From the NCBI RefSeq assembly GCF_902459525.1, contig NZ_LR699166.1:2988501-3052500 (forward strand): DNA of 64,000 nt. Direction: 5' to 3'. Source of the DNA: Sideroxydans sp. CL21 (GTDB lineage: Bacteria; Pseudomonadota; Gammaproteobacteria; Burkholderiales; Gallionellaceae). Under the pieces are notes generated by a model. It saw only the letters and a program-made list of their open reading frames with translations, was not told where the DNA came from and did no database searches. This document shows, piece by piece, positions 32,555 to 52,396 of the stretch (its first letter is position 1; every line of letters begins with the position of its first letter). A program made the position numbers and the translations under genes.

Positions 32555-33313
32555 TTAGAGTTTCGGCGACAACTCATCGGCCAAGGCCTGGGCTGCCTTG
32601 AAATCCAGCGTGCCTTCATAGATGGCACGGCCCGTAATCGCGCCGGTGATACCTTCCGAACGCACGGCACACAAGGCACGCACATCATCCAGATTGGTGA
32701 TGCCACCGCTGGCGATGACCGGCACATGCAATGGCCGCGCCAGATCGACAGTAGCCGGGATATTCACACCCGACAACATCCCGTCGCGACCGATGTCGGT
32801 GTAAATGATGGCTTCCACGCCATAGTCTTCAAAGCGTTTCGCCAGATCGGCCACATCGTGTCCGGTAAGCTTCGACCAGCCATCCACTGCGACCTTGCCG
32901 CCCTTGGCATCAAGGCCGACCATGATGTGCCCCGGGAATGCATCGCATGCCTCGTGCAGAAAGCCCGGCACTTTGACGGCAGCGGTGCCGATAATGACGT
33001 AGGTGACCCCGATATCGAGGTAGCGCTCTATGGTTTCCAGATCGCGAATACCGCCGCCCAGTTGTATCGGAATATCTCCGCCCACGGCATCAATGATGCT
33101 GCGCACAGCTGCTTCGTTTTTGGGTTTTCCGGCGAAAGCGCCGTTCAAGTCCACCAGATGCAGGCGTCGCGCGCCTTGTGCCAGCCAATGCTTGGCCGTG
33201 GCGGCGGGATCTTCTGAAAAGACTGTTGCGTCCTCCATCACACCTTGTTTGAGGCGCACACAATGACCGTCTTTCAGGTCGATAGCAGGGATGATCAGCG
33301 TTTTAGTATCCAT
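32555..33313 (-). CDS. hisA: Phosphoribosylformimino-5-aminoimidazole carboxamide ribotide isomerase
   Basis: 252 residues, TIM barrel paralogous to HisF. N-terminal [18 protein letters not shown] with the catalytic Asp, [13 protein letters not shown], and [13 protein letters not shown] with the second catalytic Asp. It performs the Amadori rearrangement in histidine synthesis. It lies 10 bp after hisH. Confidence 0.97.
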
Positions 33314-33323
33314 GATTAGCAGA

Positions 33324-34043
33324 TTAAGCAGGATTCCAGTTGATAAAATTCTGCAGCAGTTTCAATCCTGCAGCAGCACTCTTTTCCGGGTGAAATTGCA
33401 CCGCAAACAAATTCTCTTTGGCCACCGCACAGACGAAGGGTTGCGGATAGTCGCTGGTGGCTTGCACCAGACTCGAATCCCTCGGCTCCACATAATAACT
33501 GTGCACGAAATAAAAACGCGCATCCTGCTCGATTCCAGACCATAGGGGATGCTCGGGAGTATTCCCCCACCCCAACCCTCCCCCGGGGGGAGAGGGAGCA
33601 ACCGTCGCCTCCCCGCGCGGGGACGCGAGAGTATTGACTCTCCTGACCTGGTTCCAGCCCATGTGCGGCACTTTGAGTTTGCTGCCTTGCACATCCTGCT
33701 GGCCTGAAGCAAAGCGCCTGACCTGCCCGGAGAACAATCCCAGACAAGGTGTATCTCCCTCTTCGCTGTGTTCGAAAAGCACCTGCAGGCCCATGCATAT
33801 ACCGAGAAATGGCTTCCCTTCTCTGATTACGCCCGCAATCACGCTATCGAGACCGCGAGTATGAATTTCGCGCATGCAGTCCGGGGCAGCACCCTGCCCG
33901 GGAAAGATCACCCGTCCGGCAGAAGCAATCACATCGGCCTCGCCGGTAACCGCAATGTCCGCCCCGGGCGCAACTTTGCGCACGGCCTGCTGCACCGAAC
34001 GCAGGTTGCCCATACCGTAATCGACGACTGCGATATCAACCAT
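33324..34043 (-). CDS. hisH: Imidazole glycerol phosphate synthase, glutamine amidotransferase subunit, with a 24-residue inserted element
   Basis: 239 residues from ATG 34043 ([20 protein letters not shown]). The class-I amidotransferase triad is present: C83 (GICMG), H218 and E220 (FHPEKS). HisH is normally about 200-216 residues. The excess lies between PHMGWNQV and HPLWSGI, where 24 Gly/Pro/Ser-rich residues (including [11 protein letters not shown]) are encoded by a palindromic repeat flanked by a 7-bp direct repeat. Removing one unit gives [15 protein letters not shown], an ordinary HisH sequence. The frame stays open, so the enzyme is probably still functional. Confidence 0.93.
33557..33635. 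repeat. Palindromic repeat element inserted in hisH with 7-bp direct repeats
   Basis: GAGTATT at 33557-33563 and again at 33629-33635 bracket a 65-bp GC-rich element (33564-33628). The unit plus one duplication is 72 bp, exactly 24 codons. The element has two dyads: CCCTCCCCC/GGGGGGAGAGGG, and TCCCCGCGCGGGGA. Read on the minus strand it resembles the CTCCCTCTCCC...GGGAGGGTTGGGGTG type of interspersed repeat, which is also in fliI. Confidence 0.85.
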
Positions 34044-45761: not shown

Positions 45762-45806
45762 AAAATGAATCGCATGCGCCATGATCGTTTTCCCTCTCCC
45801 CCGTCC

Positions 45807-45829
45807 CCCCTCTCCCATAGGGAGAGGGG
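45807..45829. repeat. Palindromic element between fliK-like and flhB-C-like genes
   Basis: CCCCTCTCCC-ATA-GGGAGAGGGG is a perfect 10-bp inverted repeat in the 100-bp gap, preceded by another CCCTCTCCC at 45792. It shares the CCTCTCCC/GGGAGAGG core with the fliI element. The element is outside the likely coding region because the next gene starts at 45862. Confidence 0.75.
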
Positions 45830-45861
45830 TACAGCCGGATGCTACGCAAGATTCTCGTTAT

Positions 45862-46206
45862 ATGAGCACGCCGGATAAACCTCCGTCCAGGCAGATGGCG
45901 GTCGCTCTGGCCTACCGCAACGGCGATGCTGCGCCCAAAGTGGTCGCCAGCGGGCGCGGACTGATTGCGCAGGCCATCATTGAGCGTGCCCGGGAGAACG
46001 GCGTATTTGTGCATGAATCGGAAGAACTGGTCAGCATGTTGATGCAGGTGGAACTGGATCAGCACATTCCGCCACAGCTCTATCTGGCCGTGGCCGAGTT
46101 GCTGGCTTGGCTATATCGTTTGGAAAGGGGGGAAACCACCTCAATTCCCCATACTGCGCCAATTATAAACCCGCTACAATCGTCACAAGTGAAACCACGT
46201 CGATGA
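45862..46206 (+). CDS. FlhB C-terminal-domain-like protein
   Basis: 114 residues from ATG 45862. It aligns with only the cytoplasmic domain of FlhB/YscU exporters (VALAYRNGDAAPKVVASGRG; ARENGVFVHESEELVSMLMQVELDQHIPPQLYLAVAELLAWLYRLE). The NPTH autocleavage site and all membrane helices are absent. Such stand-alone proteins can substitute for the cleaved FlhB domain in other flagellated bacteria. The longer frame from 45781 begins inside a palindromic repeat and was rejected. Confidence 0.85.
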   Translation: MSTPDKPPSRQMAVALAYRNGDAAPKVVASGRGLIAQAIIERARENGVFVHESEELVSMLMQVELDQHIPPQLYLAVAELLAWLYRLERGETTSIPHTAPIINPLQSSQVKPRR

Positions 46207-50113: not shown

Positions 50114-50768
50114 ATTCTCAGTACCCGCAAGGGGTACGCCGGCGGGTACCCAGCCGTTTCACGGCGACCCTTCCGCAGCCCCCGAAAAGCTTACCGCCTG
50201 GCAGCGCTGGGAAGCGCCGAACCTGGCCACAAATGGATTACGTGCAGGCGAGGTAGCACTGCCTACTGCCGCGCAGATCGAGGAGATACAGCGGCAGGCG
50301 CGCGAGGAAGGTTTTCGGACCGGCCATGCCGAAGGTGTGCAAAAGGCCATCCAGGAAAAGCAGCGATTGTCCGAGCTGATCGATGCACTGGAGACACAGG
50401 TGGATGAACAAGTCGCGCGCGAACTGCTCGAACTGTCTCTCGACGTCGCACGCCAGATGCTGCACCAGGCACTCAAAGTGAATCCCGAACTGTTGCTTGG
50501 GGTAGTCCGCGAAGCCATCGCCACACTGCCACACTACAATCAGGGCGCGCATCTGGTATTGCATCCGGACGATGCGATCCTGGTGCGCGAACGCATGGGC
50601 GAACAATTGTCGCATTCCGGCTGGAAAATATTCGAGGACGCCCGTGTCGAACGCGGTGGTGCACGTCTGGAAACTGCAAACAGCCAGATCGACGCATCGC
50701 CGGAGACCCGCTGGAACCGCATCGTGGCGGCATTGGGGCAGGAAACCTCATGGTTGCTACCGGAATGA
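50106..50768 (+). CDS. fliH: Flagellar export ATPase regulator FliH
   Basis: 220 residues. A Glu/Arg/Gln-rich coiled-coil ([23 protein letters not shown]) is followed by the C-terminal FliH/V-ATPase E-like domain ([32 protein letters not shown]). It binds the FliI ATPase. Its stop overlaps the fliI ATG. Confidence 0.94.
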
Positions 50769-52396
50769 ACAGCAGCCCTGACATGATTAATTCAAGCCTC
50801 CCGTCTGGTTCCGGGCTGCAGGAGGTTGCTGATGTGACAACTAGCCATTCGACTAAGCCCGCAAGCGGGCAAGTCGCTGGTTATCCCGCAAACGGCCGCA
50901 ACCCTCACCTCAATCCTCTCCCGCTTGCGGGAGAGGAAGCGATCGCCCTTTCCCCCTCTGGGGGAAAGTTGGATAGAGGGCTGGCGGTAACGAGTCGCAA
51001 CCTCCACCAAGAGCGTTGGCAGGATCTGCTGCATGTGAACCGCGACCTGGTCGCGCAGAGTGCGCCCTTGCTGGTGAGCGGTCGACTGACCAAAGTCACC
51101 GGGCTGGTGATGGAAGCCGTCGGTTTGCGCATGGCGGTGGGGAGTACCTGCTGGATAGAACTGCCGAACAATCGCATCGAAGCCGAAGTCGTCGGCTTTG
51201 CCGGCGACAAGCTGTTCCTGATGCCGGAAAACGATGTGCAGGGTCTGGTTCCGGGTGCCCGTGTAATCCCTTCCGAGCCGGTGCGCACACCCGTTACCAT
51301 CGGGCAGCGTCAACCGCCGCGCCGCCGTAGCGCCGACCTGGCACGTCATCTTCCGGTCGGTGAACATCTGCTGGGACGCGTACTGGATGGCGCCGGACGC
51401 CCGCTCGACCAGCTAGGGCCTTTGTTGGAAAGCAAGAGCGCACCGCTGCAAAGCCGCCCCATCAACCCGCTGGAGCGGGCCGCCATCAAGGATGAACTGG
51501 ATGTCGGGGTACGCGCCATCAATAGCCTGCTGACCGTCGGACGCGGGCAACGTATGGGGCTGTTCTCCGGTTCGGGCGTTGGCAAAAGCGTGCTGCTCGG
51601 CATGATGGCGCGCTACACCAGCGCCGATGTGATCGTGGTCGGACTGATAGGCGAACGCGGCCGCGAAGTAAAAGAATTCATCACCGACATTCTGGGCAAG
51701 GAAGGGTTGGCGCGCTCAGTCGTGGTCGCCGCCCCTGCCGACACCAGTCCGTTGATGCGCTTGCAGGGTGCCGCCTACGCCACCACCATCGCCGAATATT
51801 TTCGGGATCAGGGCAAGAACGTATTGCTCATCATGGACTCGCTCACCCGCTACGCCATGGCGCAACGCGAGATCGCACTGGCCATCGGCGAGCCTCCGGC
51901 CACCAAGGGCTATCCGCCCTCAGTATTCGCCAAACTGCCGCAATTGGTAGAGCGCGCGGGTAACGGCGTGGAAGGCGGCGGTTCGATCACCGCGTTCTAC
52001 ACGGTACTGACCGAAGGCGACGACCAGCAAGACCCCATCGCCGACAGCGCGCGCGCCATCCTCGACGGCCATATCGTGCTGTCTCGCCGACTGGCGGAGT
52101 CCGGGCACTATCCCGCAATCGACATCGAAGCCTCGATCAGCCGGGCAATGAACCACCTGGTCAGCTCGCAACACTTTCAGCAGGTGCAGCAATTCAAGCA
52201 TCTGTATGCGCATTACCAGCGCAACCACGACCTGATCAGTGTGGGCGCCTACGTAAAGGGCAGCGATCCATTGCTGGATAGTGCGATCCAGCTGTATCCT
52301 CATATGGAGCATTTCCTCAAACAAGGCATGTATGAGTCGGAACGATATGTTTCGAGCATGGAAAAGTTCTCCGAATTGTTCCCGAATGAAAGTTGA
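50765..52396 (+). CDS. fliI: Flagellum-specific ATP synthase FliI, with expanded N-terminus
   Basis: 543 residues from ATG 50765 (ATGA overlap with fliH). The catalytic core is intact: Walker [18 protein letters not shown], Walker [18 protein letters not shown] and [14 protein letters not shown]. FliI is normally about 440-470 residues. The excess is an N-terminal stretch of about 80 residues made largely of palindromic repeat sequence ([20 protein letters not shown]). The extra stretch is open and in frame. Alternatively translation starts at a downstream TTG or GTG, which would leave the repeats in the leader. Confidence 0.92.
50850..50876. repeat. First palindromic element at the start of fliI
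   Basis: CGACT-AAGCCCGC-AA-GCGGGCA-AGTCG is an imperfect inverted repeat just inside fliI, about 20 bp upstream of the second, 7-bp-flanked element. It shares the CCGCAAGCGG core style of that element. Confidence 0.6.
50897..51002. repeat. Palindromic repeat element in fliI with 7-bp direct repeats
   Basis: CGCAACC at 50897-50903 and again at 50996-51002 bracket a 92-bp element. The unit plus one duplication is 99 bp, exactly 33 codons. It contains the perfect dyad CCTCTCCCGC/GCGGGAGAGG and a second dyad CTTTCCCCC/GGGGGAAAG. Same core and same duplication length as the hisH element. Confidence 0.85.

Follow-up and report, generated by a model that had tools for sequence, protein, structure and literature searches.

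A palindromic in-frame cassette in hisH of Sideroxydans sp. CL21 and its possible link to DUF559 nuclease genes

In-frame palindromes in known systems and in hisH of Sideroxydans sp. CL21

In REP/RAYT systems the partner gene is flanked by copies of the palindrome. Published accounts of REP/RAYT systems and REPINs describe non-autonomous palindromes that go with a dedicated nuclease-like gene (PMC2817692, PMC3116915, PMC8266576). Intragenic palindromes are also already known. Rickettsia palindromic elements (RPEs), which are about 150 bp long, form in-frame fusions with numerous metabolic genes, as summarized in PMC10969869 (citing Ogata 2000), and GTAG/CGTC REPs are reported in frame inside uvrD, polA, recBCD, and tRNA synthetases, with recB of two Xanthomonas species carrying different REPs at nearly the same position and with CGTC REPs that lack an associated transposase gene (Di Nocera et al., 2013, PMC3733652). 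DUF559 proteins are represented by VsrA of Caulobacter crescentus, a Vsr-like nuclease that is needed for a DNA-damage response in vivo and is described as a putative mismatch-repair endonuclease (PMC12907096).

The repeats considered here resemble intragenic REPs in being short palindromes that lie in frame within unrelated genes, notably repair genes; however, the main text of PMC3733652 contains neither of the terms DUF559 and Gallionella, and its passages on these REPs describe no family-wide exchange at a single site. They share with RPEs the in-frame placement of palindromic elements in metabolic genes, but RPEs are longer, occur in another host, and are presented in the relevant part of PMC10969869 without mention of a nuclease partner. 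They are like REP/RAYT systems in that palindromes are paired with a nuclease-like gene, whereas the partner here would be DUF559, a PD-(D/E)XK protein, and not a Y1 HUH transposase. Unlike the present case, the main text on VsrA (PMC12907096) contains neither 'palindrom' nor 'mobile element'. A search of the open-access literature, judged by title and the start of the abstract, returned no work on a link between DUF559 and palindromes.

The window (the whole 64,000-nucleotide stretch analyzed) comprises bases 2988501-3052500 of the 3.77 Mb single-contig genome of Sideroxydans sp. CL21 (hereafter G000). It includes hisH (Table 1), whose product matches the PDB HisH chains 4gud, 1ka9, and 1gpw. 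The Pfam GATase match covers the full protein and the reading frame is open through the insert. The genome yielded one full-length hisH match, while two further matches were short translations of the element. The ORFs on either side are presumably hisB and hisA; apart from hisH, the his genes were named by us from their sequences.

Table 1. Coordinates of hisH, its insert, and a second element-bearing ORF in the window.
Feature	Position	Strand	Basis
hisH, glutaminase subunit of imidazole glycerol phosphate synthase, 239 aa	33324..34043	-	ORF; Pfam GATase; PDB
In-frame insert cassette plus replaced host loop codons, residues 134-164, between MGWNQV and HPLW	33552..33644	-	Family comparison; pLDDT
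Palindrome 1 (P1), type T2	33606..33627	-	Sequence; family search; pairing counts (weak)
Palindrome 2 (P2), CCCTCTCCCCCCGGGGGAGGG on coding strand, core of dispersed repeat	33576..33596	-	Sequence; genome copies
G-rich tail of repeat, TTGGGGTGGGGG on coding strand	33564..33575	-	Like tails in own-genome copies
GAGTATT, copy 1 of 7-bp direct repeat	33557..33563	.	Sequence; chance estimate
GAGTATT, copy 2 of 7-bp direct repeat	33629..33635	.	Sequence; chance estimate
ORF with in-frame two-palindrome element near N-terminus	50750..52396 (palindrome 50948-50968)	+	Palindrome pattern

An AlphaFold2 model of HisH alone, computed as a single model without HisF, had a mean pLDDT of 89, with 180 of the 239 residues at 90 or above and residues 139-160 below 50. 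The low values at these residues and the high values of the core predict a well-formed HisH core from which the insert projects as a disordered or floppy loop. We also considered an RNA structure as the role of the insert and rejected it: the fold of the insert was ordinary for its composition (z = -0.78), an Rfam scan of positions 33300-33900 returned no family above its gathering score, and covariation in P1 was weak (8 and 5 sequences). An assembly artefact is likewise unlikely, because inserts are present in two single-contig, near-complete genomes, G000 (99.98% complete) and G002 (100% complete).

Distribution and local exchange of the hisH insert

Homologs of hisH were matched in 149 of the 158 genomes of the family. 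We take this family to be the Gallionellaceae because the HisH stretches of a Sideroxydans MAG (L012) and a Gallionellaceae MAG (L034) match those of G023 and G121, respectively; among named HisH relatives, MAGs labelled as Gammaproteobacteria, Sideroxydans, and Nitrosomonadales came closest, and a Gallionellaceae MAG ranked lower. We retrieved the hisH loci of 88 of the 149 genomes and read 87 loops, the locus L144 ending inside its loop. A palindromic in-frame insert at this one loop was found in 27 of the 87, spread over 8 of 15 genera, and 60 were insert-free; this share overstates that of the family because genomes with long matches were retrieved first, and among the matches listed for the remaining 61 genomes most stop at residue 134-137, like those of insert-free genes. 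Of 80 loci of HisH relatives, only L013 had a similar insert, with the same loop and DNA as G118 (L126).

Insert-free loops mostly comprise four residues (HHGD-like) and at most nine between MGWNQV and HPLW, and insert-free HisH is mostly 211-212 aa long, compared to 239 aa in G000. HisH of other lineages (L019, L025, L053, L073, and L083) shows short length variants at the same position, suggesting that the loop is permissive in general.

Insert types were defined by P1. One gene, hisH of G156, carries two types stacked in tandem, and three others (L129/G067, L141/G126, and L142/G120) have an extra stretch nested within the cassette. Separately, L137/G101 has a long in-frame palindrome at the same loop that is unrelated to the P2 family, and L153/G123 has about five extra loop residues that resemble the deletion scar of a T1-type insert.

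Many subclades show a patchy distribution of the insert. Insert-bearing genes stand next to insert-free sisters (G028/G019, G113/G048, G040/G042, and G148/G150) in trees of the HisH core or of the his operon, the latter serving as a stand-in for the species tree. On the HisC-B-A-F tree (83 rows, 25 with the insert) at least 18 changes of state were required; L098, L138, L139, L144, and L156, two of which bear the insert, were set aside in the trees.

Identity of the insert is decoupled from that of the host gene (Spearman -0.11 over 351 pairs of insert and flank identities). The hisH genes of G024 and G025 are 96% identical upstream and 92% identical downstream of the insert, yet they carry different insert types, and in 30-nt windows their differences cluster from about 90 nt before the insert to 30 nt after it. 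Conversely, the inserts of G024 and G002 are 96% identical whereas their flanks are 78-81% identical, and the tract they share continues past the insert for about 60 nt of hisH (30-nt windows). Inserts were also more alike than flanks in G025 and G076, which belong to different genera (84% versus 69-77%), and in G113 and G135 (87-90% versus 76%), while in G000 and G081 the contrast was slight, the insert (80%) being hardly above the nearest flanking windows. These observations indicate that the segment has been gained, replaced, and lost locally, and that the hisH insert behaves as a locally exchanged cassette.

The second half of this cassette is a dispersed repeat (see below), whereas P1 of the two types searched was not seen dispersed. 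When P1 and the linker of types T1 and T2 were searched against the 158 genomes, full-length matches were found at hisH only, the long P1 matches being those of G113, G135, G139, G063, G002, and G024 and of G067, G073, G120, G156, G118, and G000. Matches outside hisH covered the linker and P2, except for three of 23-31 nt that touch P1 (G007, G107, and G151); these short partial matches leave the confinement of P1 to hisH slightly open, and weak P1 copies could escape a search restricted to T1 and T2 in which the best five candidates at most were scored per genome. Since P1 was not seen dispersed and its long matches fall at hisH, the hisH inserts appear to be homologs of each other, and the whole cassette looks shared and exchanged at this locus and not simply a fresh copy of a dispersed element. 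On the P1 types T1 and T2, repeated insertion of a whole dispersed element at hisH is accordingly disfavored.

The 7-bp repeat around the insert of G000 is a separate matter. As the earlier note had reported, a GC-rich double palindrome lies between perfect copies of GAGTATT in hisH, and both its coordinates and the 65-bp interval were reproduced; the copies are 72 nt, or 24 codons, apart from start to start. The claim that the insert adds exactly 24 codons does not hold, since measured against insert-free loops of mostly four and at most nine residues the net gain is about 27-28 codons. Deleting one repeat unit does give the reading that had been proposed, but its identity with the ancestral loop was not confirmed, because insert-free loops of the family are shorter than the reconstructed one and RRVNTPE belongs mostly to the cassette; rebuilding the ancestor to the base in this way is therefore unsupported. 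The expectation that some relatives would lack the loop was borne out, but insert-free loops do not fit the duplication exactly.

Dinucleotide shuffles gave some 7-mer repeat at a spacing of 66-78 in 202 of 2000 sequences and a 7-mer repeat that brackets the element in 54 of 2000, and because such repeats arise by chance in 2.7-10% of shuffles the GAGTATT pair is weak evidence. We scanned 24 rows for direct repeats, two of which were identical and with the inserts L139-L142 set aside. Among the resulting 23 distinct hisH inserts the AATACTC/GAGTATT repeat occurs in G000 only; 9 of the 22 others have another direct repeat of at least 7 nt at a spacing of at least 40, and L129/G067 is the sole other insert with a 7-mer (TCGAACA) at both ends. 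A target duplication of constant length at both ends, as in MITEs or IS elements, was not found among the 23.

Dispersed repeats and their association with DUF559

The second half of the hisH cassette belongs to a dispersed CCCTCTCCC..GGGAGAGGG repeat that comprises the P2 palindrome and a G-rich tail. BLAST identified 25 matches in G000 including that in hisH. The earlier description of a mobile-looking, in-frame repeat is consistent with the 24 further copies, of which 13 lie within recognised proteins whose frame stays open: NifN, TadA, UvrD, AddA, Mpl (two copies), an RlmN-like methyltransferase, PolA, HrpA (two copies), MutS, RecJ, and MetG. The same element is thus in frame in several unrelated genes, as are RPE-like palindromes. 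Four copies are N-terminal to a recognised domain and may be untranslated (RimM, NifB, FlgH, and an ORF with a pilin-type methylation motif), and seven lie elsewhere (three without a covering ORF of more than 100 aa, three in a covering ORF without a Pfam family, and one whose ORFs were not scanned). Five or six frames are stop-free in 21 of the 24 copies, compared to 48% of random 42-mers from the window, which would have helped the repeat to survive in frame. Inspection of the 24 copies by eye revealed no regular GTAG beside P2, although GTAG occurs inside P1 of some.

Several further elements were noted. The second element-bearing ORF of the window (Table 1), which we take to be fliI, has the P1-linker-P2-tail plan of some hisH inserts together with a stretch that resembles a nested palindrome. 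A lone palindrome of the family at 45808-45828 lies at the very start of the ORF 45781-46206 and may precede the true start codon. A second palindromic element, ATAACCAGCGAC..GTCGAATGGCTAG or its reverse as judged by eye, is nested in the first and is in frame within genes; it was seen in L129, L142, L204, L210, L222, and L223 and in hrpA of G002 and G008. Besides its CCCTCTCCC repeat, mutS of G000 (L191) contains a distinct in-frame stretch, RPEPVEG..STSSGRTG, that looks like another repeat.

In G000, hrpA contains a complete DUF559 domain in frame, with a pair of palindromes on either side, and no intein was listed for the HrpA ORF by Pfam or NCBIfam. The site was readable in 28 genomes of the genus: DUF559 was present in 10, a palindrome alone in G004, another insert in G015, and 16 were empty. 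The presence and absence of a nuclease-bearing insert at the same site in close relatives, a homing endonuclease-like trait, was therefore found at hrpA. The ORF itself (L190) is 1493 aa long and combines several palindrome-coded stretches with the DUF559 domain; the insert of G015 (L240) is short and unrelated, KQPPNVGASLLANDGVEKIASKLAPTYN.

We then examined the flanks of the 30 best-scoring DUF559 loci of the family, one per genome, using a written palindrome pattern in place of an nhmmer profile, which found nothing near the 30 loci or in the controls, the model being too weak. With the fixed pattern, a palindrome was found within 150 bp at 29 of the 30 loci, on both sides at 20, and as an inward-facing inverted pair at 17; several loci share the same neighborhood and are not fully independent. 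Palindrome density was 6.4 per kb near DUF559 and 0.074 per kb beyond 500 bp, and with the same pattern 61 insert-free his loci (213 kb) yielded one match and 80 HisH-relative loci (491 kb) three.

Phylum-wide, DUF559 was present in 25 of 80 genomes. We screened 23 of 30 loci from 18 genomes (two loci from G000; the weak partial matches L276-L282 set aside), and a palindrome was found within 200 bp of DUF559 at 22 of the 23 (20 of 21 without G000) and on both sides at 14, with one match in 45 kb beyond 500 bp. A similar hairpin is present at the single locus that lacks a pattern match. We also selected eight plasmid DUF559 loci out of 44 records. A hairpin of 8 bp or more lies within 250 bp at six of them (three from Azospirillum and one each from Sphingomonas, Deinococcus, and Synechocystis), three of which fit the fixed pattern, and at the remaining two, which are cyanobacterial, shorter palindromes can be made out by eye.

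Across the 158 genomes the number of DUF559 matches (counted to E 0.001, some of them weak) was correlated with the number of repeats (rho = 0.67), with a median of 21 repeats in the 107 genomes with DUF559 and 2 in the 51 without; this correlation is partly built in because the count includes the copies that flank DUF559. Repeats were counted with one pattern allowing at most one mismatch, so that other palindrome types were missed (G077 scored 0). Phylogenetically independent pairs also linked DUF559 to repeats (9.4 for and 0.2 against, median p = 0.004). Fourteen genomes have DUF559 with at most 2 repeats and 12 have at least 10 repeats without DUF559, several of these genomes being incomplete.

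The hisH insert did not significantly track the presence of DUF559 (22 of 27 genomes with the insert versus 37 of 60 without; Fisher p = 0.085; independent pairs 2.7 for and 1.9 against), and G118, which is 99% complete, has a hisH insert and 3 repeats with no DUF559 match. The insert does track repeat richness (median 30 versus 9, p = 3.5e-5), which on independent pairs is a trend (4.1 versus 0.1, median p = 0.125). This suggests that any link between DUF559 and hisH runs through the shared repeat family and is not direct.

Origin of the hisH insert and its significance

Collectively, we lean modestly towards reading the hisH insert as a non-autonomous palindromic cassette that belongs to a repeat system linked to, and putatively mobilized by, DUF559, for which hisH would be a stable site of exchange. 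The repeat of P2 and G-rich tail is dispersed and often in frame inside proteins, related but different two-palindrome cassettes come and go at the hisH loop, and palindromes flank ORFs of a Vsr-like PD-(D/E)XK nuclease, often as inward-facing inverted pairs, with one such unit in frame in hrpA. The nuclease may recognize or nick the palindrome or an empty site, and repair may then copy the palindrome, or palindrome, nuclease, and palindrome together, into new places. Selection would retain only insertions that are stop-free and a multiple of three in length in tolerant loops, and later spread at hisH would proceed by short-tract conversion between related species, perhaps stimulated by the nuclease in a homing-like manner. 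Nuclease action by DUF559 is plausible, given the solved structure of a relative of the domain (3hrl) and the requirement for the Caulobacter DUF559 protein in a DNA-damage response.

Ordinary homologous recombination among Gallionellaceae hisH alleles, acting on an old insertion with many subsequent losses and with no role for DUF559 at hisH, is a less probable but serious competitor. Under this explanation an inert cassette sits in a permissive loop and moves on short donor tracts for which the conserved MGWNQV and HPLW codons serve as anchors. The full-length matches of P1 types T1 and T2 at hisH only, the tract that G024 and G002 share past the insert, the slight contrast between insert and flanks in G000 and G081, the apparent scar in G123, and the lack of a significant association between the insert and DUF559 presence all agree with it. 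It fits less well with inserts that are more alike than the surrounding gene (G113-G135 and G025-G076) and with patchiness in so many subclades, and it leaves both the genome-wide repeat family and the insertions of DUF559 in hrpA unexplained.

Insertion by transposases was weighed in two forms. A Y1 (HUH) transposase that inserted REPIN-like two-hairpin elements repeatedly and independently at a preferred target in hisH would account for the two-hairpin architecture, for the lack of a clear target duplication, and for the two-palindrome element in another ORF of the window, and Y1_Tnp matches occur in 122 of the 158 genomes. However, no palindrome was found in the retrieved flanks (62 kb) of 20 Y1_Tnp loci from 18 genomes, drawn from the RAYT-like middle of the list and not from the top IS200-like matches, or at the two Y1_Tnp loci of G000. 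The number of Y1 genes was weakly related to the number of repeats (rho = 0.21; partial 0.11, not significant), independent pairs gave 4.0 versus 1.0 (p = 0.375), and P1 of types T1 and T2 has no full-length match outside hisH. A Y1 or RAYT mobilizer is therefore unsupported and this origin is improbable. The origin proposed in the earlier note, one recent transposition that left a 7-bp target duplication, is the least probable of all, and we give it very little credence: the perfect GAGTATT pair around the element speaks for it, but the chance frequency of such pairs, the absence of the repeat from the 22 other scanned inserts, and an insert-free loop that is shorter than the reconstruction all speak against it.

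A broader reading of the DUF559 association, to which we give even chances, is that DUF559 and CCCTCTCCC..GGGAGAGGG palindromes together make up a class of mobile elements that has so far gone unrecognised and that crosses phyla, the loci at hand being from many Pseudomonadota, one Deinococcus, and three cyanobacteria. The nuclease would copy either itself or bare palindromes in frame and would revisit sites such as those in hisH and hrpA in a homing-like manner; splicing-out would not be needed, because the host protein tolerates the insert.

For the spread of in-frame palindromes that lack a RAYT partner, DUF559, which lies beside palindromes at nearly every locus examined, is a testable candidate. 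If this is true, a widespread domain of unknown function would gain a role. The hisH loop of this family, with its pairs that have, lack, or have swapped the insert, offers a natural experiment on the gain of disordered protein loops.
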